NCBI RefSeq assembly: GCF_003575975.1
Contig: NZ_QQXK01000018.1
Location: 1-64,000, forward strand
Direction: 5' to 3'
DNA length: 64,000 bases
From: Galactobacter valiniphilus
Lineage (GTDB): Bacteria; Actinomycetota; Actinomycetes; Actinomycetales; Micrococcaceae
The notes beneath the pieces were generated by a model. It was not told the DNA's origin. It saw only the letters and a list, made by a program, of their open reading frames with translations, and did not search any database. A program made the position numbers and the translations under genes. The first letter of the stretch is position 1. Each line of letters begins with the position of its first letter. This document shows positions 4,918 through 63,096 of the stretch, one piece after another.

Positions 4918-5214
4918 TCAGTCCTCGTCCAGAATCGCGGGCACCTTGAAACGGCCGTCCTGCTGGTCGGGGGCGCCGGAGAGCGCCTCCTCCTGCGTGA
5001 GGGTCACGCCGACCACGTCCTCGCGGAACACGTTCGTGAGCGGGATCGGGTGGCTCGTCGCGGGGACGTCGTCGCCCGCAACCTCGGACACGGACGCAAT
5101 GGCGTCGACGATGGCGTCGAGCTCGCCGGCCATGCGGTCCAGCTCCGCATCGCTCATCGCGATGTGGGCCAGCTCGGCCAGGTGAGCCACGTCGTCACGA
5201 CTGATGGCAGACAT
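4918..5214 (-). CDS. gatC: Asp/Glu-tRNA(Asn/Gln) amidotransferase subunit C
   Basis: Small subunit (98 residues) that wraps around GatA and stabilises the GatA-GatB interface. The typical opening [20 protein letters not shown] and the C-terminal region with LTNVFREDV are visible. It is the first gene of the operon. The ATG is preceded by GGGAG with a 4-nt spacer, and a TAGACT -10 box lies about 35 nt upstream, giving a short leader. The order C-A-B is the common actinobacterial arrangement. Confidence 0.95.
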
Positions 5215-7375: not shown

Positions 7376-8398
7376 ATGTCCCGCGCCGACCTTTCCCGTG
7401 AGCTCGGCCTGACCCGCGTCACCGTCTCCGATCTGGTGGCCGAGCTGCAGCAGCGCAACCACGTCGTGGAGCTCGGCATGGCGGAGAAGAACCGCCCGGG
7501 CAAGCCGGCCATCCTCGTCGATGTCAACCGCACGGGCCTGCAGATCGTCGGGCTCGACCTCGCCGAGGCCAACGTCCTGCGCGCCGCCGTCATGGACCTG
7601 GACGGCAACGTCCTCACTCGCCTGCAGACCGAGCTCACCGACGAGCGTGGCGAGGCCGTCACGGCCCTCGTCCTCGAGCTCGCCGACCGCGCCGTCGCCG
7701 CCGCCACCGCACCGCTGCTCGGCATCGGCGTGGGCACGCCCGGCATCGTCGACGCCGACGGCGTGGTGCTCACCGCTCCCAACCTCGACTGGCTGGACCT
7801 GCCGCTCGGCACGCTGCTTGAGGAGCACACGAGCCTTCCCACCCTCGTCGCCAACGACGCGGACGCCGCCACGATGGGCGAGTTCACCTTCGGCGGCGGC
7901 GGGGACGACATGATCCTCGTGAAGATCGGCCGCGGCGTGGGCTCCGGCCTCATGGTCGGCGGCCGCCGCGCCCGCGGCATACACTCCGCCGCCGGCGAGA
8001 TCGGCCACGTCACGGTCGGCACCGACGGCGGCGAGCCCTGCGTGTGCGGCAAGGTCGGCTGCCTCGAGACCTGGGTCGCCGCCCCTCACCTCGGGCGAGC
8101 CCTGGCCGCGGCGCCCGACGACGCAGCGCGGGCCGCGCTCCTGGCCACGGCCGGGGAGCGCCTCGGCATCGCGCTGGCGCCCGTCGTGGCCGCCCTTGAT
8201 CTTGCCGAGGTGGTCCTCGCGGGCCCCTCGGACCTCCTGAACGGTGAGCTCGCCTCGGCGGTGGCCACCACCTTGAGAGACCGCACCCTGCAGCAGCGCG
8301 AACCGCAGCTGCTGGTGCGGCTCAGTGAGGACCCCCATGACATCGTGCTGCGCGGAACCGCGGTGCTCGTCCTGTGGGCCCAACTCGGGGTGGCCTGA
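7376..8398 (+). CDS. ROK family transcriptional regulator (start codon missing or atypical)
   Basis: Winged-helix repressor with a sugar-binding ROK domain. The annotated ATG gives 340 residues. It begins inside the DNA-binding helix: the same frame is open upstream to 7241 and encodes the expected first helix (AHNLSLVLRTLHSQGAMSRA), but that stretch has no ATG, GTG or TTG. The HTH continues as LSRELGLTRVTVSDLVAEL, followed by the ROK domain with GIGVGTPGIVDADG and the zinc site GEIGHVTVG...CVCGKVGCLE. It leads an ABC sugar cluster (binding protein, two permeases, glucosaminidase, kinase) and probably represses it until a sugar binds. Either the start codon is mutated or an unusual codon is used. 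Confidence 0.75.
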   Translation: MSRADLSRELGLTRVTVSDLVAELQQRNHVVELGMAEKNRPGKPAILVDVNRTGLQIVGLDLAEANVLRAAVMDLDGNVLTRLQTELTDERGEAVTALVLELADRAVAAATAPLLGIGVGTPGIVDADGVVLTAPNLDWLDLPLGTLLEEHTSLPTLVANDADAATMGEFTFGGGGDDMILVKIGRGVGSGLMVGGRRARGIHSAAGEIGHVTVGTDGGEPCVCGKVGCLETWVAAPHLGRALAAAPDDAARAALLATAGERLGIALAPVVAALDLAEVVLAGPSDLLNGELASAVATTLRDRTLQQREPQLLVRLSEDPHDIVLRGTAVLVLWAQLGVA

Positions 8399-8518
8399 AC
8401 GGCACCCACCACCCGGGCGGTGGCTCCCGCCGCCGCCCGATCCCCCCTCAGACCCCCCGCCCGTGCTCGCGCAGCGCGAGAGGACCGTGACCGTCACCCA
8501 CAAGAAGGAACTCTTTCG

Positions 8519-9894
8519 ATGAAGAAGAAGTTTGTATCCATCGCGGCCCTCGCCGCGACGACGGCGCTTGCCCTGTCGGCCTGCGCAGGTGGAAGCACCC
8601 CCGCCTCCTCGAGCTCGGCCGCCCCACCCGCGACCGACAAGTCGGCCAACGCCGGCAAGTCCATCACCCTGTGGCTCGCCGGCGGCGACACCTCGGATGA
8701 GCTGCGCGAGTACCTGAAGACCACCTTCAACGAGAAGACCGGCGCCACCCTCAAGATCGAGGAGTAGGCCTGGGGCGATCTCGTGGCCAAGGCGACCACG
8801 GCGATGTCCAACGCCGACACCACCCCGGACGTCGTGGAGGTGGGCAACACCCAGTCCCCGACCTTCACCTACGCCGGTGCCTTCGCCGACGTCTCCGACA
8901 TGTACGACGAGCTCGGCGGCGACAAGCTGCTCAAGTCCTTCGTCGAGGTCGGCTCCGTGGACGGCAAGAAGTTCACGCTGCCCTACTACTTCGGTTCCCG
9001 CTACGCCTTCTACCGCAAGGACGTGTGGAAGGAAGCCGGCATCACCGAGGTCCCCAGGACCTCGACGAGTTCAACACGACGGTGAAGACCATCGCCGAGA
9101 AGAACCCGCGCAACATCAAGGACTTCTCGGGCTTCTTCCTGGGCGGCCAGGACTGGCGCGACGGCATCTCCTGGATCTTCGCCAACGGCGGCGATCTGGC
9201 CAAAAAGGACGGCGACAAGTGGGTCTCCACCCTCTCCGACCCGAACTGCCTGAAGGGCCTGCAGCAGCTGTAGGAGCTGTACAAGTCCGCCTCCAACGCG
9301 CCGAATGACGCCAAGGATTCGAACCAGTACATCTTCCTGAACGACGCCGACGCCGTCCTCGACGCCGAGGGCAACGTCACCTCCAAGACCAACCTCAACG
9401 GCGCCACGATCATGGCGCCGGGCTGGGCCCACTGGTCCATCGGCGACCTGAAGAAGGTCGACGGCACGGACACCCGCGTCTGGAACGACGAGACCTTCGG
9501 CACCTTCGTGCTCCCGGGCAACGACGGCAAGCCCGCCCCGGTCTTCGCCGGCGGTTCCAACATCGGCATCTCGGCCAAGTCCAAGGAGCCGGGACTGTCC
9601 CGCGAGCTCATGAAGATCATCTTCTCCGCCGACTTCCAGAAGCAGCTCGGCGGCGCCGGCCTCGGCCCGGCCAACTCGGACTACGTCTCCTCGCTGGGCG
9701 ACGACCAGTTCGCCAAGGCCCTCATCGAGTCCGCCTCCAACTCCAAGCTGACCCCGGCCGCGCCGGGCTGGGCCACGATTGAGGCCAACTCCGTGATGGA
9801 GGAGTTCTTCTCCAAGATCGAGGGCGCCTCCGATCTGGCCACCCTGGCCAAGGAGTACGACGACAAGCTCACCCCGATCCTCAACGCTCAGTGA
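8519..9894 (+). pseudogene. Disrupted sugar ABC transporter substrate-binding lipoprotein
   Basis: Family 1 extracellular solute-binding protein. The N-terminus has a good lipoprotein signal (MKKKFVSIAALAA, lipobox LSAC). The reading frame is broken three times. TAG at 8765-8767 sits where homologues have Gln (EE*AWGDLVAK). One base is missing near 9053 (GTCCCCAGGACC, expected CCCAAGGAC). A second TAG lies at 9271-9273 after LQQL, again where Gln is expected. On either side the sequence stays protein-like to the end (PILNAQ), with sugar-binding-protein features such as PDVVEVGNTQSP and the ELMKIIFSADF region. The gene has a strong ribosome site (AAGGA) and is followed by two intact permease genes. 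Without a working binding protein the importer should be dead. Confidence 0.85.
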
Positions 9895-9984
9895 TCTTGC
9901 CGAGGGTGGTTGGGGCGCTCGCGTCCCGACCACCCTCACCCTTTTCTCTTCTTTTCCCTCGCAAGCCCCATGAAGGACGAGGTC

Positions 9985-10950
9985 ATGATGTCCGTCGACG
10001 CCCCGGCGTCCCCGGCCCCGGAGGCCGCTCCCCCCGCCACGGGAGCCACGCCCACCCGCCGCCGTCGCCGCTCCCTCACCCCCTGGCTGCTGATCGTCCC
10101 CACGCTGGTGATCGTCATCGCCGCCATGGGCTACCCGATCTTCTGGCAGCTCAAGACCAGCTTCCAGAAGTACGGACTCAAGCAGCAGTTCAACCCCGAT
10201 CTCCCGCCGGACTTCGTGGGCTTCGACAACTACGTCAAGGTCCTCACCAACCCTGACTTCCTGGCCGTCCTGGGTCGCTCGATCCTCTTCTGCTTCCTTG
10301 CCGCGTTCATCACGGTCATCCTCGGCTTCCTCCTGGCGCTGCTCATGAAGCGCGTCGGCAAGGTCGCCCGCCTCATCCTGCAGATCGCCCTCCTGCTCGC
10401 CTGGGCCATGCCCGTCGCGGCGTCCATGACCGTCTGGGTCTGGCTCGTCGACTGGCGCAACGGCGTCCTGAACTACCTGCTCGGCAAGCTCGGCCTCGAC
10501 GTCGAGGGCCACAACTGGCTCGCCGATCCCACGACCTTCTTTGTCATCGCGCTCATCATCGTCATCTGGGCGGCCGTGCCCTTCGTGGCCCTGAGCATCT
10601 ACGCCGGCCTCTCGCAGATCTCGGAAGAGGTTCTCGAGGCCGCGCAGATGGACGGCGCCACCGGCTGGCAGCGCACGCGCCACATCGTCCTGCCGCTCAT
10701 CGCCCCCGTGCTCTCCATCGTCCTGCTCCTGCAGATCGTCTGGGACCTGCGCGTCTTCACGCAGATCAAGTTCCTGCAGGACGCCGGCGGCGTCGCCAAC
10801 GCTACGGACCTGCTCGGCACGTACATCTACAAGATGGGCGTGGGCTCGGCCGACTTCGGCTCCGCCGCTGCGGTCTCGGTCATCATGCTGCTGCTGACGA
10901 TCGCCCTGTCCTGGTACTACGTCCGTTCGATCATGAAGGAAGAGGACTGA
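9985..10950 (+). CDS. Sugar ABC transporter permease (MalF/UgpA type)
   Basis: Inner-membrane permease of 321 residues with about six membrane segments. The first follows a basic run of Arg residues (LTPWLLIVPTLVIVIAAMG). The cytoplasmic EAA loop that docks the ATPase is seen as EEVLEAAQMDGATGWQRTRH near residue 215. The ATG at 9985 has AAGGA 7 nt upstream; the ATG at 9988 is also possible. It pairs with the permease that begins one base after its stop codon. The ATPase is not encoded here, so a shared MsiK-type ATPase elsewhere is likely, as is common in actinobacteria. It is intact although the binding protein in front is broken. Confidence 0.9.
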   Translation: MMSVDAPASPAPEAAPPATGATPTRRRRRSLTPWLLIVPTLVIVIAAMGYPIFWQLKTSFQKYGLKQQFNPDLPPDFVGFDNYVKVLTNPDFLAVLGRSILFCFLAAFITVILGFLLALLMKRVGKVARLILQIALLLAWAMPVAASMTVWVWLVDWRNGVLNYLLGKLGLDVEGHNWLADPTTFFVIALIIVIWAAVPFVALSIYAGLSQISEEVLEAAQMDGATGWQRTRHIVLPLIAPVLSIVLLLQIVWDLRVFTQIKFLQDAGGVANATDLLGTYIYKMGVGSADFGSAAAVSVIMLLLTIALSWYYVRSIMKEED

Positions 10951-10951
10951 C

Positions 10952-11854
10952 ATGAGCGCCACGACCTCCGCCCGGCGTTCAGCCGGCACCACCACGGTGC
11001 GCAAGCCCAAGGTCTCCACGGGCCGCCGCGTCTCCGGCTGGCTCTGGACCCTCCTCGCCGTTGCCGTCGCCCTGTGCTGGATCTTCACCGTCTACTGGAT
11101 GGTGAACTCCTCGTTCCTCTCCACCGTGACGCTGCAGAAGTCCACGCCCACGTGGCTTCCCTTCGGCGGTAGCTGGGACAACTTCAAGAACATCTTCGCC
11201 GACGGCACCTTCGTGAAGGCCTTGAGCATCTCGCTCGGCGTCACGCTGCTGACCGTGCTGGTGGCCATCGTCGTGGCCTTCCTCGGCGCCCTGGCCATCT
11301 CGCGCTTCCGCTTCAAGGGCCGCAAGTCCTTCATCCTGGCCATGCTGCTCATCCAGATGCTGCCCGCCGAGGGCATGTTCATCGCGCAGTTCAAGATGAT
11401 GGCCTCCTGGGGCCTCGTCAACAACATCCTGGGCCTGACGCTGCTCTACGCCGCGGCGGTCATCCCCTTCACGCTGTGGATGCTGCGCGGCTTCGTGGCC
11501 GGCGTGCCCGCCGAGCTGGAGGAGGCCGCCTTGGTGGACGGACTCTCTGGCACGCAGGCCTTCCTGCGCATCACCTTCCCGCTGCTGGCCCCCGGCCTCG
11601 TGGCCTCCGCCGTCTACGCGTTCCTGCAGGCCTGGAACGAGTTCACGATCGCGCTCGTGGTCATGCAGGACAACGATGTGCGCACCCTGCCGCTGTGGCT
11701 GCGCGGCCTGGTCCAGGCCTCCGCGACCCGCGAGACCCACTGGTGCCTGGTCATGGCCGGCTCCACGATGGTCGCCGTGCCCGTGATCATCTTCTTCATG
11801 ATCGTCCGGTCCAAGATGTCCTCCGGCCTCGTGGGCGGGGCGGTGAAGGGCTGA
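10952..11854 (+). CDS. Sugar ABC transporter permease (MalG/UgpE type)
   Basis: Second permease, 300 residues, six predicted membrane helices. The EAA loop reads ELEEAALVDGLSGTQAFLRI near residue 190, followed by the conserved LLAPGLVASAVYAFLQAWNE. The ATG lies one base after the stop of the preceding permease, so the two are coupled. A MalG-like segment ILAMLLIQMLPAEGMFIAQF lies in the middle. Together the two permeases would carry an oligosaccharide or amino sugar released or trimmed by the GH3 enzyme encoded next. Confidence 0.9.
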   Translation: MSATTSARRSAGTTTVRKPKVSTGRRVSGWLWTLLAVAVALCWIFTVYWMVNSSFLSTVTLQKSTPTWLPFGGSWDNFKNIFADGTFVKALSISLGVTLLTVLVAIVVAFLGALAISRFRFKGRKSFILAMLLIQMLPAEGMFIAQFKMMASWGLVNNILGLTLLYAAAVIPFTLWMLRGFVAGVPAELEEAALVDGLSGTQAFLRITFPLLAPGLVASAVYAFLQAWNEFTIALVVMQDNDVRTLPLWLRGLVQASATRETHWCLVMAGSTMVAVPVIIFFMIVRSKMSSGLVGGAVKG

Positions 11855-11911
11855 TCATGACCTCCCCCCCTTTCCCCCTCGGCGCTCGAGCGCCTCATCG
11901 CCGGCACCCTC

Positions 11912-13318
11912 ATGCCGGGCTTCCAGGGCCTCACGGTCCCGGCCTGGATCGGGGAGGGGCTCGACGGCGGCCTCGCGAGCGTGTGCCTCTACGGCGCCAA
12001 CCTCGACACCCCGGCGCAGCTCGGTGACCTCGCCGCGCGCCTGCGCGAGCTCTCCCCCTCCGCCCTGCTCACGCTGGACGAGGAGGGCGGCGACGTCACG
12101 CGCCTGCACTACCTGACGGGTTCCCCGCAGCCGGGCAACGCCGTGCTTGGCCGGATCGACGACGTAGCGGCAACCGCGGCGTCCGCGCAGCTGATCGCCG
12201 CCGAGCTGCAGGCCCTCGGCCTCAATTACGACCTCGCGCCGTCGGCCGACGTGAATTCCTCGCCGCAGAATCCGGTGATCGGCACGCGCAGCTTCGGCGC
12301 CGAGCCCGAGCTCGTCGCCAGGCACACCGTGGCCTGGGTCGAGGGCCTGCAGGCCGCCGGCGTGGCGGGGTGCGTGAAGCACTTCCCCGGCCACGGCGAC
12401 ACGACCGCCGACTCGCACCTCGCGATGCCGCGCATCGACACCGACCGCGCCACCCTGGACGCCCGCGAGCTCGTGCCGTTCCGCGCCGCCATTCAGGCCG
12501 GCGTGGCCACCGTCATGACGAGCCACATCCTCGTGCCCGCGCTGGACCCGAGCGGCCCCGCCACCTTCTCCCGCGCCATCCTCACGGAGCTGCTGCGCGG
12601 CGAACTGGGCTTCGAGGGCGTCATCGTCACCGACGCCCTCGACATGAAGGGCGCGAGCGGCGAGGTCGGCATCCCCGAGGCAGCCGTCCGCGCGCTCATC
12701 GCCGGCGCCGATCTGCTCTGCCTCGGCTCGGAGACGAGCCCCGAGCTCTACCGCGAGGTGCTGGACGCCGTGGCAGCCGCCGTGGCCGAGGGTCGCCTGA
12801 GCCTGGAGCGCCTCCGGGACGCGGCCGAGCGCACGTCTCGCCTGGCCGCCGCCTACCCGGCCGCCGTCCCCGGCTCCGCCGGTTCCGTGCCCGGGCCCGA
12901 GCGCATCGCCGAGGCGTTCCGCCGCGGCGCGGCGGTCCCGGCCTGGCTCGCGAACCCGGCCCCGGTCGCCGTCGTGCAGCTCGAGAACGAGGCCAATATG
13001 GCCGCCGGTTTTGTGCCGTGGGGCGCCGGCGCGGCCGGCGTGCCGCTGAGCACCCCCGCCGAGGTGCCCGCCGGCGCCAAGGTGGCGCTCGTGGCCCGCG
13101 GGCTCGACGCCGCCCACCCGGCGTGGGCGCTGGCCGCCGAGTTCGAGGGCGCCGGGCACCCGGTGCTCGTGATCGAGTGCGGCTGGCCGCACGACGAACG
13201 CGCCGACCTCGTGACCTTCGGAGCCTCCCGCGCCGTCGGCGAGGCCCTCGCCCTCGCCCTGCAGCTCCCCGTGGCGGCGCCCGCCGGCGCCGTGGGGGGC
13301 GGTGGGAGCGCGGGATGA
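11912..13318 (+). CDS. nagZ: Glycoside hydrolase family 3, NagZ-type beta-N-acetylhexosaminidase (frameshifted at the 5' end)
   Basis: Cytoplasmic GH3 enzyme, 468 residues from the internal ATG. The NagZ signature is seen as CVKHFPGHGDTTADSHLAMP near residue 155, with the catalytic His; the nucleophile Asp is in VIVTDALDMKGA near residue 238. Such enzymes cut beta-linked GlcNAc from muropeptides or chito-oligosaccharides. In-frame coding continues upstream as SALERLIAGTL, but the natural start, the ATG at 11857 two bases after the permease stop, is out of frame. A run of seven C at 11864-11870 with one C too many explains this. The last bases overlap the next gene (ATGA). The truncated form would lack the first strand and helix of the barrel. 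Confidence 0.8.
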   Translation: MPGFQGLTVPAWIGEGLDGGLASVCLYGANLDTPAQLGDLAARLRELSPSALLTLDEEGGDVTRLHYLTGSPQPGNAVLGRIDDVAATAASAQLIAAELQALGLNYDLAPSADVNSSPQNPVIGTRSFGAEPELVARHTVAWVEGLQAAGVAGCVKHFPGHGDTTADSHLAMPRIDTDRATLDARELVPFRAAIQAGVATVMTSHILVPALDPSGPATFSRAILTELLRGELGFEGVIVTDALDMKGASGEVGIPEAAVRALIAGADLLCLGSETSPELYREVLDAVAAAVAEGRLSLERLRDAAERTSRLAAAYPAAVPGSAGSVPGPERIAEAFRRGAAVPAWLANPAPVAVVQLENEANMAAGFVPWGAGAAGVPLSTPAEVPAGAKVALVARGLDAAHPAWALAAEFEGAGHPVLVIECGWPHDERADLVTFGASRAVGEALALALQLPVAAPAGAVGGGGSAG

Positions 13319-14202
13319 GGCGTGACATCGACATCGGCGGCACCAAGACCGCCGTCGCCGCCGTCGCGCCCAATGGCGCGGTGCTCGCGCAGCGTTCGGC
13401 CCCGTCGGGCCGCGGCCCGGCCGAGGTGACCCAGGAGGCCGCCCGGCTCGCGCGCGAGACCGTGGCCGCCGCCGGCGTCCCGGCCGACGCGGTCGGCGCG
13501 TGCATGCCCGGCATGGTGGACCCGCACTCCGGCGTGGTGCGCCACGCGGTCAACCTGGACGTGGACGAGCTCGACCTCGCGGCCGGGCTCGCGTGGGAGC
13601 TGCACCTTCCGGTCTCCGTGGACAACGACGTCAAGGCCGCCGCTCTCGGCGCTGCCCTGCACGTGGGCAACGGCGGGACGGGCGGCACCCTGGCCTACCT
13701 CAACCTCGGCACTGGCCTCGCGGCCGCCGTGGTGCGGGACGCCCGCGTGCTGCGCGGTCCGGATGGCGCCGTCGGCGAGATCGGGCACTTGCCCGTCGGC
13801 AGCGGCATCCGCTGCCAGTGCGGGCAGCTCGGCTGCCTCGAGACCCTGGCCTCCGGTTCGGCCGTGGCGCGCGTGTGGCGCCCGGCGCCCGGCCAGCGGG
13901 CCGACCCCCTCGCCGCCGCGGCGGCCGGGGATGCCGACGCCTCTCGCGCGGCGGATATGCTGGCCGACGGCGTGGCGCAGGCCCTGCAGCTGCTGGCCAT
14001 CAGCGTGGGCCCGGACCGGGTGGTCCTGGGCGGCGGTGTGGCCAAGGCCCAGGGCCTGGCCGAGGCCGTGCGCGCGGCCATCGCACGCCGCGCCGCCAGC
14101 AGCGATTTCGTCGCGTCCCTGCGGCTCGATACCCGCTTCGAGGTGCTGCCGGCCGAACTGCCGGTCGCGTCCCTCGGGGCCTCACTCCTCCCCACGCGCT
14201 GA
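13315..14202 (+). CDS. ROK family sugar kinase (probable N-acetylglucosamine or glucokinase)
   Basis: Protein of 295 residues with the ATP-binding DIGGTKTAVAAVAP at the start, the sugar-binding VDNDVKAAALGAA near residue 100, a phosphate loop GTGLAAAVV, and the ROK zinc motif CQCGQLGCLE near residue 163. It has no DNA-binding domain, so it is a kinase rather than a repressor. The ATG overlaps the stop of the GH3 gene (ATGA). Its place behind a NagZ-type glucosaminidase suggests phosphorylation of GlcNAc or a related sugar set free inside the cell; glucose is the alternative. It ends the operon. Confidence 0.82.
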   Translation: MRRDIDIGGTKTAVAAVAPNGAVLAQRSAPSGRGPAEVTQEAARLARETVAAAGVPADAVGACMPGMVDPHSGVVRHAVNLDVDELDLAAGLAWELHLPVSVDNDVKAAALGAALHVGNGGTGGTLAYLNLGTGLAAAVVRDARVLRGPDGAVGEIGHLPVGSGIRCQCGQLGCLETLASGSAVARVWRPAPGQRADPLAAAAAGDADASRAADMLADGVAQALQLLAISVGPDRVVLGGGVAKAQGLAEAVRAAIARRAASSDFVASLRLDTRFEVLPAELPVASLGASLLPTR

Positions 14203-14956: not shown

Positions 14957-21424
<6,468 letters not shown>

Positions 21425-21428
<4 letters not shown>

Positions 21429-22576
21429 TTCTCGCCCTTTTCCAGCGCGAGGCGCAGGTGCTGTCCGATGGTGGTGGAGGCGACCGCGACCACCACGATC
21501 ACGAGGCCGGGGATGACCGTGAGCCAGGGCGCGTGCACGATGTAGCGGCGCCCGGCATCCAGCAGGGCTCCCCACTCGGGGGACGGCGGGGACACGCCGA
21601 GCCCCAGGAACGCGAGGCTCGAGGCCCACACGATGGACTGGCCAACCGACATGGCAAGGATCGCCACGAGAGGGCGGATCGCGTTCGGGAACACGTGCCG
21701 GCACAGGATCGCCGAGCGCGGGTGGCCGAGCGTGAGCGCGGCCTCGACGTAGCCGGAGCCGGAGGCCTGCAGGATCTGCGCCCTGACCATGCGGGCGTAG
21801 CCGGGAGCCGAGCCGACGGCCACCGCGAGCACCTGGGCCAGGGCCGAGGGGCCGGTCACAGCCACGAAGGGCTGCTTGAGCGTGTTCTCGTACTCCGTGC
21901 GCGTCGACTGCCCCATGAAGCCAGCGAGCGGGATGGCGAGGGTCAGTGCCGGCAGGACGATGCCCGCCGGCTTGTCCCCGCTGATGACGGGGAACCAGCC
22001 GAGGCCGGCGGCAAACACCACGAGGAGCAGGATGCCGAGCCAGTAGTGCGGCAGGCCCGCGGCGACGGTGTCGATGACGGCGCCCACGGAGCTCAGCCAC
22101 GGCGCGCGGCCGGCGGTCAGCGTGACCCAGAGGACCATGATGATCCAGGCGAACAGGAGCGCGAGCGCCGTGAGCGCCAGGGTGGAGGGCAGCTGCTCGG
22201 CGATGAGCGCCGCGACGGGGCGGAACTGCTGGTATGAATCCCCGAGGTCTCCGCGCAGCAGGCCGCCGAGGAACTCGACGTACTGCTGCCAGGCGGGGCG
22301 CTGCAGGCCGAACTGCTCGTTGATGGAGGCGAGCTCCTCCGGCGTGCGCTCGATGGCCTGGCCGGCCCGGATATTGAAGATGACCGTGGCCCGGTCTCCC
22401 GGCAGCGCGAGCTGCGCGAGGAAGGCGACGGTGGCGGCGCCCCACAGGGTGACGAGGGCGCCGAGGAGGCGGCCGCCCCAGCGCAGGGCGAACGCCCCGC
22501 CCCGGCGCGCGGCGGGCGCGGCGGGGGGTTCGAGTCCCTGCGCTGCGCGCTGCTCAGGAGCTGAAGTGAGCGTCAT
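21425..22576 (-). CDS. Hybrid ABC permease: DppB N-terminal half joined to DppC C-terminal half
   Basis: Protein of 383 residues that changes family in the middle. Residues 1 to about 240 follow DppB: first helix, then the FGLQRPAWQQYVEFLGGLLR region, LPHYWLGILLLVVFAAGLGW and LPALTLAIPLAGFMGQSTR. Just where DppB should continue into its own EAA loop, the sequence becomes DppC-like: VGSAPGYARMVRAQIL, EAA loop YVEAALTLGHPRSAILCRHV, then LAFLGLGVSPPSPEWGALL and the last helix. The junction is near base 21856. The usual two genes have been reduced to one in-frame ORF, lacking about 85 residues of DppB and the first half of DppC. One EAA loop remains, so a homodimer might still dock two ATPase domains; equally it may be dead. 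Confidence 0.8.
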
Positions 22577-24179
22577 GGAAGACCGGTCCCCCCTGCGAGT
22601 GCTCCTGCCACACGTCGACGACGTCCGGGGCCACGGCGAGCGTGCTCAGCCGGTCGTAGAGGCCGATCGCGTAGGCGTGATCGGCGATGTACTCCTGGGC
22701 GTCCTGGTAGGCCTTGGCGCGCTCGGCCGGGTCGCTTGCCGAGTTGCCCTTGAGGATGAACTTCTCGAGCGTCGCGTCCTGGGTGAAGGCCGAGTTGTTG
22801 CCGTTGGGGCTCTTCTCGGTGTCGGGGCGCCAGTTGATGTAGAGGATGCCGGAGGTCACCGAGGTCCAGTAGCCCGCGTAGATGTCGCGCTCGTTCGGCT
22901 TGGAGTAGGCCCCGGAGAAGAGCTCGGACTGCGGCACAGAGATCAGCGTGACCTTGAAGACCACGGCCTTGGCCTGCTCGGCCACGCCCTGCAGGATCGA
23001 GGCGCCGTCGGCGGTGACGATGGAGCCCGCGCCGTAGGGCAGCTTGGCCTCGAGGACCTTGCCGTCCTTGGTGCGGTAGCCCTCGGCGTCGCGCTCGGTC
23101 CAACCGGCGGCGTCGAGCAGCTGGTTGGCCTTGGCCGCGTCGTAGCCGTAGGCGTCGGCCGCCTTCTGGCTGTAGTCGGTGGTGGCCTGGCTGACGGAGC
23201 CGTTGCCCTCGAAGGGGATGACGTCGAGGCCCACGGTCTTCACGAGGGCCGGGCGGTCGAGGCTGTAGGCGAAGGCCTTGCGCACCGACTCGTCCTTGAA
23301 GATGCCCTCGCGGGTGTTGAAGGTCAGCGCCTGCGGGCGGCCGCCCGTGACGTACTTTTGCAGCTGGAAGCCTCCCTGCTCGAGCTGCTGCCAATCGATG
23401 GCCGGCACGTCGTAGATCGCGTCGACCTCGTCGGCCTTCAGGGCCGTGGCGCGGGTGGTGCCGTCCGGGACGAAGCGCCAGTCGACCGCCGCCAGCTTGG
23501 CCGGGCCCTGCACCTTCGCGTTGGCCGGCCAGGACGCGTACTCGTCGTTGCGCTTGAGCAGGATGTTCTGCCCGCGGTTCCACTCGGACACCGTGAACGC
23601 GCCAGAGCCGATGGGCGCCTCGCAGTTCTGCTCCGCCGTGCGTTCCTTGAGCGCCTTGGCCGACTGGATGCCGAAGTAGCCCTGGCTGATGGTCTCGGGC
23701 AGCTGCGGGTAGGGCCGCTTGAGCTTGATGGCCAGCGTCGTGGCGTCCACGGCCTTGGCGGAGTCGTAGTAGCCGCCCAGCCACACGGCGGCGGTGGAGT
23801 TGCCACCGTCCACCCAGTAGTCGAAGTTCGCGGCGACGGCGGCGGCGTCGACGGCCGTTCCATCGGTGAACTTCACGCCGTCCTTGAGGTTCAGCGTCCA
23901 GGTCAGGCCGTCGGCGGAGGACTTCCAGTCCGTGGCGAGCCACGGGACGGCCTTCCCGTTCTCGTCGAGCGAGGTGAGGCTGTCGAGCACCTGGTAGGAG
24001 AGGTAGGCCTGTTCGATCCAGCCGCCAAACACGCAGGCGGGTTCCTGCTGGTGGGCGTAGACGAGGGTTCGATCGGTCCCGGCGCCGCCATCCGCTGCGG
24101 TGGCGCCACCGGCGCACGCAGTCAGGCCCAGGGCGGCTGCCGAAAAGAGGGCGAGGGTGGACAAGTGACGGCGGGACAT
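22554..24179 (-). CDS. Peptide-type ABC transporter substrate-binding lipoprotein (SBP family 5)
   Basis: Extracellular binding lipoprotein of 541 residues. The signal is MSRRHLSTLALFSAAALGLT with the lipobox LTAC at residue 22. Family 5 features follow: the CVFGGWIEQAYLSYQVLDSL region, WTLNLKDGVKFTDGTAVDA near residue 110, and the long C-terminal lobe with AYSLDRPAL. The start ATG at 24179 gives a proper signal peptide; a longer reading from 24281 does not. The stop overlaps the permease by 23 bases. It opens the operon SBP - hybrid permease - fused ATPase - flavin monooxygenase. The ligand is unknown; the monooxygenase suggests a small S- or N-containing compound rather than a peptide. Confidence 0.9.
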   Translation of the reverse strand: MSRRHLSTLALFSAAALGLTACAGGATAADGGAGTDRTLVYAHQQEPACVFGGWIEQAYLSYQVLDSLTSLDENGKAVPWLATDWKSSADGLTWTLNLKDGVKFTDGTAVDAAAVAANFDYWVDGGNSTAAVWLGGYYDSAKAVDATTLAIKLKRPYPQLPETISQGYFGIQSAKALKERTAEQNCEAPIGSGAFTVSEWNRGQNILLKRNDEYASWPANAKVQGPAKLAAVDWRFVPDGTTRATALKADEVDAIYDVPAIDWQQLEQGGFQLQKYVTGGRPQALTFNTREGIFKDESVRKAFAYSLDRPALVKTVGLDVIPFEGNGSVSQATTDYSQKAADAYGYDAAKANQLLDAAGWTERDAEGYRTKDGKVLEAKLPYGAGSIVTADGASILQGVAEQAKAVVFKVTLISVPQSELFSGAYSKPNERDIYAGYWTSVTSGILYINWRPDTEKSPNGNNSAFTQDATLEKFILKGNSASDPAERAKAYQDAQEYIADHAYAIGLYDRLSTLAVAPDVVDVWQEHSQGGPVFHDAHFSS

Positions 24180-24508
24180 GAGCCTGCTTTCGTGCCGGGG
24201 GCCGCGGAGAGCGCGGCCTGCATAAGGGGTTGGTGTGGCGACTCTTCCAGGAAGCGGCGTGGCGTTTTTGTCCCCCGTCATGCGACGCGATGGAGCCCCT
24301 CCCAGCGGCGTCTCGGGGCGTCACGCGGCGTCGCTTTGGCCAGCATTCAGGCGGCGTTGACGCGCGGATCGTTGCGCCGGAGCCCACATGACGCGCGATG
24401 TCGTCACAGTCCCACCCCACCCGCCGCCGCCCGCGCTCCCGCCCGCGACGCGTCGTCGTGCCCCTTCAAGGGGCCAGCCGCTGGGTCTCGCCCCACCTCT
24501 TCCGGAAT
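24180..24508. other. Intergenic region upstream of the SBP operon
   Basis: No gene is visible. It should hold the promoter of the minus-strand SBP operon: a short GCCGCG..CGCGGC hairpin lies close to the start, and a TATGCA box near 24220 is a weak -10 candidate. I see no riboswitch that I can name. Confidence 0.4.
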
Positions 24509-24554
24509 CAAAAAATCGACGGGGGATCGTCGCTCAGACGATCCCCCGTCGATT
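24509..24554 (-). terminator. Strong rho-independent terminator of the adenylate cyclase gene
   Basis: Perfect 18-bp arms (AATCGACGGGGGATCGTC, 24514-24531, and its complement 24537-24554) with a 5-nt loop. On the minus strand the stem is followed by a run of T (24509-24515). Confidence 0.85.
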
Positions 24555-24600
24555 CCCGGATCTCGCGCGGGGCCGCAAGGCCTTTGCGGCGCAGTCGGCG

Positions 24601-61479: not shown

Positions 61480-63096
61480 TCAGCCCCGCGGCGCGGACTC
61501 CGGGCCCAGGGGCACGCCGAGCCGTTCGGCGGCCACGGCCTCGATGCGTCCGAGGCGCTCCCGCACCTCGGCCAGGTCCGCCTCGACGTCCTCGCCGACG
61601 AGGTCGGTGCCCGGGAGGTGCTCCACCGAGGCGACGCGGCGCAGGAGCTGAACGTGTTCGAGCTCCACGACGGCGCGCGCCCGGGCCCCGTCGCCTCGGC
61701 CGCTGTTACGGTCACGACTCACCGCGGCCAGGTCGAGGTCCTCCCCCAGGAGGGAGATCCGATCGAGGCGGCGCCGCAGTTCCTCCGCCTCGCCGCGGCG
61801 GCGTGTGCGCAGCGCGCTGTCCGCGAGCCGGCCGCCCTCGCGCCAGGCGAGGCCGAGGGCCGTGGCAACGATCGCGCCGGTCGCCAAGAGCAGCCCGAGC
61901 AGCGCGCCGGCCCAGGGCCCGTTGCGCTCCCCCAGCCAGGCCGCGCCGACCTCCGAGAGAAACGCGGAGATCGCCACGCCGGCGAGACCCCCGAGCCCCG
62001 CCAAGACCAGGCCGCCGAGCAGGAGCGAGGCGGCGAGGAACTCGGGCGCGCTCTGGTGCAGGGGCGGCTCGTCGACGCCGCCCTGGCTCGGGCGGCGGAC
62101 GTTCGAGCGGATCCTGTCGTGAGCGATGGCGGCGCTCATGGCCTCCGCGCCCTCGGCGCGCGCCGTGGCCTGCGCGGCCTCCCCATCGGCGACGGCGTCG
62201 GCGCCCGCCAGCGCGAGGGCGGCGTCCGCGTTCGCGAGCCGGCTCCGGGCCGCCTCCACCGCCGCCGCCCGGTCGCAGGCGCGGCGCGTCGGGTCGGCCG
62301 CCACGTCGGCGGCCGCCGCGGCGTTGCGGAAGGCCGCCAGGATGCCTCCCGGGCGCCAGGAGGGGTCCAGCGAGCGCGCCGTCCGGTCGGCGAAGGCGCG
62401 GCGCTGCCGCTCGCTCAGATCCGCCTCCAGCTCGGCGCGTGCGCGGGACCAGCGGCGCTCCCCTGCCTCGACCTCCGCCGGCGAGACGGGAACGGACGCG
62501 CCGCCGGGGCCGGCGCTCGCTGCCGACTCGGGGCGCACCCGGAAGGGCCTGGCGGCGTCCAGGATCGCGCCGGTGCGTGCTTCCGTCGGCGCAGCGCTTC
62601 GGGGCGCCTCCGGCGTGCCGGCCAGTGCCGCGAGCGCCGCCGACTCCGTCTCGAACGCGGCAACCAGGCCGGCGACCTCGCCCAGCGGGCCGCCGTACGC
62701 CGCCTCCGGGCGCGAGCGCAACCCCTCGCGCGCGCCGTCGATCGCGGCGATCGCACGCAGCCCCCGCGACTCCAGGACCCGGGCCGTCTCGGCGCCGCCA
62801 GCCGAAGCGTGCGCCGTCAGCCCCGCGAAGTCGGCGTGGATCACCACCCCGGCAGCCAGCCCGCCCGAGCGCACGAGGCTCAGGTCCCAGCGGCGCCGTC
62901 GGCGGCGGCCGGCGGTCCGCCGCATGAGCGCCGCGACGGCCAGGGCGGCGGAAGCCGCCATGAGGGCAGGGAGGGCCGCATTGAGCAGATCGAGGAACGG
63001 GGCGAAGTCATCCCCCGCCCGCGCCGCCGTGGACGGATCCCACGGCGTGCCGACGCCGGGCACGCCGGCCCGCAGGACCACGGAGCCAAGCCCCAA
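61480..63096 (-). CDS. Large Ala-rich membrane protein, unknown function
   Basis: Protein of 538 residues from a TTG start. A hydrophobic segment near residues 38-58 (LNAALPALMAASAALAVAAL) precedes an Arg cluster. Then comes a long, Ala/Glu/Arg-rich coiled-coil-like region (about 120-320), two hydrophobic segments near 350-380 and 390-415 (LAASLLLGGLVLAGLGGLAG; GALLGLLLATGAIVATALGL), and a helical C-terminus rich in charged residues. The layout resembles actinobacterial TPM/DUF-type membrane proteins, but I cannot name the family. The start is doubtful: coding-like sequence with a further hydrophobic stretch (AAWWWAGLTLALGLGSVVL) continues upstream to a TGA at codon 3 of an ATG ORF, so a lesion near the 5' end is possible. 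Confidence 0.65.
   Translation of the reverse strand: MGLGSVVLRAGVPGVGTPWDPSTAARAGDDFAPFLDLLNAALPALMAASAALAVAALMRRTAGRRRRRRWDLSLVRSGGLAAGVVIHADFAGLTAHASAGGAETARVLESRGLRAIAAIDGAREGLRSRPEAAYGGPLGEVAGLVAAFETESAALAALAGTPEAPRSAAPTEARTGAILDAARPFRVRPESAASAGPGGASVPVSPAEVEAGERRWSRARAELEADLSERQRRAFADRTARSLDPSWRPGGILAAFRNAAAAADVAADPTRRACDRAAAVEAARSRLANADAALALAGADAVADGEAAQATARAEGAEAMSAAIAHDRIRSNVRRPSQGGVDEPPLHQSAPEFLAASLLLGGLVLAGLGGLAGVAISAFLSEVGAAWLGERNGPWAGALLGLLLATGAIVATALGLAWREGGRLADSALRTRRRGEAEELRRRLDRISLLGEDLDLAAVSRDRNSGRGDGARARAVVELEHVQLLRRVASVEHLPGTDLVGEDVEADLAEVRERLGRIEAVAAERLGVPLGPESAPRG

Follow-up and report, generated by a model that had tools for sequence, protein, structure and literature searches.

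The stretch of DNA analysed here (the window) comprises bases 1-64,000 of contig C9 (71,977 bases) in the draft genome of Galactobacter valiniphilus (3.4 Mb, 99 contigs, completeness 100), and carries on its forward strand a sugar-uptake operon in which the gene for the binding protein is broken. Upstream lies an open frame for a ROK-family regulator (NagC/Mlc-like; 7376-8398; Pfam ROK, 126 bits), with homology that begins at about 7262 and matches to the NCBIfam Mlc and NagC models that fall under their cut-offs. The damaged gene (8519-9894), which most probably once encoded the sugar-binding lipoprotein of an ABC transporter, is followed by two ABC sugar permease genes, permease 1 (9970-10950; the longer frame 9910-10950 scores 65 bits against Pfam BPD_transp_1) and permease 2 (10952-11854), and then by a GH3 glycosidase (11912-13318; Pfam Glyco_hydro_3, 241 bits) and a ROK-family sugar kinase (13315-14202; Pfam ROK, 157 bits over 13327-14199), the ATG of which overlaps the GH3 stop. 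A first-pass annotation, made from the sequence alone, had described the permeases, glucosidase and kinase downstream of the break as largely readable, and all of these frames are indeed open; a lost kinase start and a broken GH3 end were entertained as further lesions and dropped on alignment. The glycosidase is possibly a NagZ-like beta-N-acetylhexosaminidase, as judged from a score of 190.3 bits against the NCBIfam beta-N-acetylhexosaminidase model (cut-off 207 bits) that belongs to the copy of a close relative (G003, below) and not to the window's own.

The reading frame of the binding-protein gene runs from an ATG at 8519 to a TGA that ends at 9894, and its N-terminus is recognisable by eye as a lipoprotein-type signal peptide. 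When translated with X at the breaks, the product matches the Pfam profiles SBP_bac_8 (92.8 bits, cut-off 27) and SBP_bac_1 (75 bits, cut-off 26), both well above threshold, which bears out its initial identification as a sugar-binding protein gene. Three lesions disable it relative to intact orthologues. Two are in-frame TAG codons (8765-8767 and 9271-9273) that occupy sites where an intact relative has CAG (Gln82 and Gln251, respectively), just as the first-pass annotation had proposed; glutamine is found at the first site in four of five aligned homologues and at the second in all five, and conservation of both columns is 95% or higher in homologue sets of n = 16 and n = 40. The third is a net -1 frameshift at approximately 9052-9061. 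A missing A near 9053 had been suggested for this lesion, and the net loss of one base stands, whereas the exact site is one possibility among several, as alignment to the intact relative leaves the lost base unfixed. The stretch before the gene measures 120 bases (8399-8518) against 153 in the same relative, and is hence 33 bases shorter; a promoter lesion was considered, but over roughly 65 bases immediately upstream of the ATG the two sequences differ at a single place, and no conclusion was drawn. No plasmid match to 8300-14000 was found.

The intact relative is the same-genus MAG Arthrobacter sp. Pcu381_bin21 (JAITLQ010000007.1; G003:C8; locus L097), which encodes an orthologue with 92% protein identity. 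In both genomes the ROK regulator is followed by the binding protein, the two permeases, the GH3 glycosidase and the ROK kinase in that order; in Pcu381_bin21, however, the binding-protein frame is unbroken, CAG stands at both TAG sites and the changes along its lineage are rich in third positions. Among the three other genomes of the genus that were compared, this is the one with an intact orthologue, the best matches in the remaining two being 28% and 23% identical. Within the G. valiniphilus genome itself there is no close substitute for the binding protein, as the longer of its other matches are 24-30% identical and the short N-terminal ones reach at most 49%. A separate observation concerns the window further downstream, where 18214-24586 (approximately 6.4 kb) lacks a counterpart at the same place in Pcu381_bin21, which implies an insertion in this genome or a loss from that of the relative.

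A scan of bacterial genome contigs returned 42 loci, of which one (L138, 28% identity) was left out. In all 41 remaining loci, a set that includes Pcu381_bin21 itself and that was seeded with conserved peptides such that heavily decayed copies may escape it, the best match to the binding protein is without internal stop and is followed by both permeases, and in 40 of them the binding protein lies in one frame. The exception, a Cryobacterium MAG (L127), has one frame change at about 4336, which may be a draft error, and its permease 1 and GH3 glycosidase match only partly. Single stops occur in matches to other genes of the operon in four loci (L101, L103, L104 and L133). One of these contigs (L103) is titled Sporosarcina beigongshangi and carries the operon at approximately 72% identity; Sporosarcina is not an actinobacterium and the operon is otherwise seen in actinobacteria, which suggests contamination or a mislabelled record.

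To assign substitutions to the G. valiniphilus lineage or to that of Pcu381_bin21 (hereafter the sister), we used the codons of outgroups, which share only ~70-75% protein identity, so that third-position changes are undercounted, equally in both lineages. The binding-protein gene has accumulated 13, 6 and 5 changes at codon positions 1, 2 and 3 in its own lineage as opposed to 3, 2 and 16 in the sister (p = 0.0003). With the two nonsense changes set aside, positions 1 and 2 together against position 3 give 17 and 5 here and 5 and 16 in the sister (p = 0.0007), and a second script that also counted the codons at the frame break gave 15, 7 and 5 here against 3, 2 and 16 (p = 0.0001). Residue counts with single outgroups range over 12-20 changes here and 5-9 in the sister. 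Purifying selection on this gene has thus been lost in its own lineage, with the change concentrated in the 3' part: dN/dS against the sister is 0.49 in the 3' part and 0.095 in the 5' part. The two permeases have values of 0.11 and 0.14, and the median over the remaining matches of the window is 0.13. In a stricter count, all nine own-lineage changes fall at residue 199 or later; a looser count places two changes in residues 1-82, none in 83-177, two in 178-251 and eleven in 252-457, so that 13 of the 15 lie from residue 178 onwards (p = 0.056, first versus second part). Uniform drift would not predict such a concentration, and a recombined 3' part is possible.

Relaxation is also apparent in permease 2, which has changed at positions 1, 2 and 3 by 9, 2 and 9 here and by 1, 0 and 13 in the sister (11 and 9 against 1 and 13 for positions 1 and 2 versus 3, p = 0.009) and by 7-12 residues here against 1-4 in the sister with single outgroups. 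On these counts the gene looks relaxed, more mildly than the binding protein. Its lineage-specific changes include some at conserved residues, two of which fall in what we take to be the EAA loop. The first-pass annotation had held that all flanking sequence resembles a well-kept coding region, which is true of the 5' part of the broken gene and fails for its 3' part and for permease 2. Five control genes, pooled, show 29 changes at positions 1 and 2 and 111 at position 3 here, and 34 and 103 in the sister (p = 0.47), and the codon-position shift is absent from the regulator, permease 1, the kinase, GatB, the amidase and DNA ligase (the last three compared with 1-3 outgroups). Indeed, permease 1 is constrained (96% identity to the relative; own-lineage changes of 2, 0 and 7 at positions 1, 2 and 3; 1-4 residue changes here and 2-4 in the sister with single outgroups), and the regulator, 93% identical to its same-genus orthologue, shows no relaxation (3-8 residue changes here, 3-6 in the sister). 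The GH3 glycosidase is equivocal: its changes do not differ from those of its own sister (p = 0.67) yet exceed the pooled controls (p = 0.0006), with single-outgroup counts of 16-27 here and 10-17 in the sister. The kinase leans slightly to its own lineage with single outgroups (8 to 4 and 7 to 3; that is, 7-8 changes here and 3-4 in the sister).

We hold with high confidence that a genuine pseudogene of fairly young age occupies 8519-9894, in an operon that is starting to decay; the feature is annotated as such on its lesions, its family match, the intact relative and the relaxed selection in its own lineage, and the early impression that the damage is recent fits a pseudogene of this age. 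The loss of the binding protein might instead have been useful, for example by escaping a phage or toxin that uses the protein, while the rest of the operon serves another binding protein. Permease 1, the regulator and the kinase, all without a codon-position shift, are compatible with this scenario, as are the nine of ten SBP_bac_1 matches that lie outside the broken gene (two within same-length frames on contig C17). However, the relaxation seen in permease 2 as well is more readily explained by general decay, and the other binding proteins are as distant as described above; we regard a useful loss as improbable. We likewise consider it quite improbable that the loss was selected or tolerated with the constrained genes (permease 1, regulator and kinase) being reused, for instance with a different binding protein.

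Another explanation is that the cell carries an intact gene, misrepresented by wrong bases in the draft. To examine this, 382 kb of the G. valiniphilus genome (the window contig and 310 kb of three others) were compared with 470 kb of Pcu381_bin21, 80 kb of the latter from contigs whose counterparts lay outside the sampled DNA; 209 of 317 Pcu381_bin21 frames were matched (identity of 65% or more across 70% or more of the frame), for a total of 248,499 coding bases. Within these 209 orthologue pairs the binding-protein gene contains three lesions, and 17 other genes were flagged. Six of the 17 were inspected, yielding one convincing frameshift and five over-extended starts by appearance; in the other 11, every stop but two (residues 135 and 159) falls among residues 1-90, a region in which predicted starts are not dependable; one of these 11 genes may carry a real lesion, a TAG at residue 37 in a protein of 96% identity. 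In the reverse comparison 11 of 214 Pcu381_bin21 frames were flagged, and such flags are hence common on both sides. For the window gene at 4918-5214, where a TAG aligns close to the start, over-extension of the relative's start was likewise taken as the probable explanation. The convincing frameshift is on contig C77: Pcu381_bin21 encodes a 764-residue kinase-like/aminotransferase fusion (so named by eye), and here its counterpart is split at ~61589-61598 (about residue 229).

The fragmented state of the draft (99 contigs), the one other convincing frameshift in the sampled part of the genome and the 11 flagged genes beyond those inspected lend some credence to error. Nevertheless, random error would be unlikely to strike a single 1.4 kb gene three times: the chance of three lesions in one gene is ~1.4e-4 over 209 genes if the total is four lesions, a figure that hinges on dismissing the flagged genes other than the C77 frameshift. 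Errors would also not push substitutions to positions 1 and 2 in the binding protein and permease 2 while leaving five controls normal. On clustering and codon-position bias we reject random sequencing error, which we rate as very improbable, and the suggestion of the first-pass annotation that the damage might be artificial is not supported, given the clustering of the lesions in one gene and lineage-specific substitutions that point to relaxed selection.

In-frame TAG codons at conserved glutamines can hint at a changed genetic code, and the first-pass annotation had noted that their recurrence at glutamine sites would point to suppression. Among all 60 tRNA matches in the genome, scanned with ARAGORN, none was read as having a CUA anticodon; the glutamine tRNAs present are the ordinary UUG and CUG, and one poor match (L095) lacks a clear anticodon call, its loop reading GTTAC by eye. 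When the 209 pairs were screened without the 15 residues at either end, the only Gln-to-TAG changes flagged were the two in the binding-protein gene; the remaining internal TAGs stand opposite Tyr, Ala, Met, Gly or a gap. This genome uses TAG as an ordinary stop: the codon ends 30 of the 180 genes with aligned C-termini (TGA ends 131 and TAA 19) and in 25 of these 30 falls exactly at the end of the Pcu381_bin21 gene, where the stop is TAG in 20 and TGA in five. That both TAGs sit at conserved glutamine codons notwithstanding, amber suppression or reassignment of TAG to glutamine, which together with frameshifting would leave the gene expressed, is rejected as having next to no probability, given the tRNA content, the use of TAG as a stop and the lack of recurrence across these pairs, and it accounts for neither the frameshift nor the relaxed selection. 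The tRNA content, stop-codon use and codon-position statistics thus indicate plain gene decay in place of a code change.

A pseudogene of the ordinary kind therefore remains the most likely identity of 8519-9894, artificial damage and suppression not being supported. In the ancestor, the lipoprotein would have caught a sugar and passed it to the two permeases encoded downstream, with the GH3 glycosidase cleaving and the ROK kinase phosphorylating the product; the substrate was probably a beta-linked, perhaps N-acetylglucosamine-containing, oligosaccharide. We propose that this uptake function ceased to matter in the G. valiniphilus lineage, that one disabling mutation inactivated the binding protein and that two more, along with amino-acid changes, then accumulated by drift, the order of these events being our reconstruction. 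Translation would end at codon 83, after 82 residues of which over half are signal peptide and linker by eye. An ABC importer depends on its binding protein as the substrate receptor, and translation that ends at this codon would leave no working binding protein and an importer presumably unable to work normally. Permease 2 appears to have begun to lose constraint as well, and possibly the GH3 glycosidase too.

With nonsense changes left out, the gene carries an excess over the sister of 12 changes at positions 1 and 2, where 57-110 would be expected if the whole branch had been neutral (dS 0.125-0.24); by this very rough reckoning, the gene may have been inactive for between a tenth and a fifth of the period since the lineages parted. 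The two nonsense changes imply 8-249 neutral substitutions, a range too wide for dating. The evidence comes from one assembled genome of the species, for which the loss of one sugar-uptake route is predicted; the outward-facing binding protein is the broken part of the operon, with permease 2 the next to show relaxed constraint.

A literature search for papers combining pseudogene, transporter and Arthrobacter terms returned none. Among solved structures, the best match is Lin1841 (5ysb), which the protein of the intact relative matches at an E-value of 3e-20. Like members of the SBP_bac_1 and SBP_bac_8 families (PF01547 and PF13416), the pseudogene, with X at its breaks, scores above the Pfam cut-offs; unlike them, the copy here would be translated no further than residue 82. 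Bacterial pseudogenes can arise via nonsense and frameshift mutation, and the present case differs from them in no notable respect, the sampled part of the genome being without signs of genome-wide decay. As in such pseudogenes in general, a single gene bears several disabling mutations and shows relaxed selection, and its surroundings are conserved.
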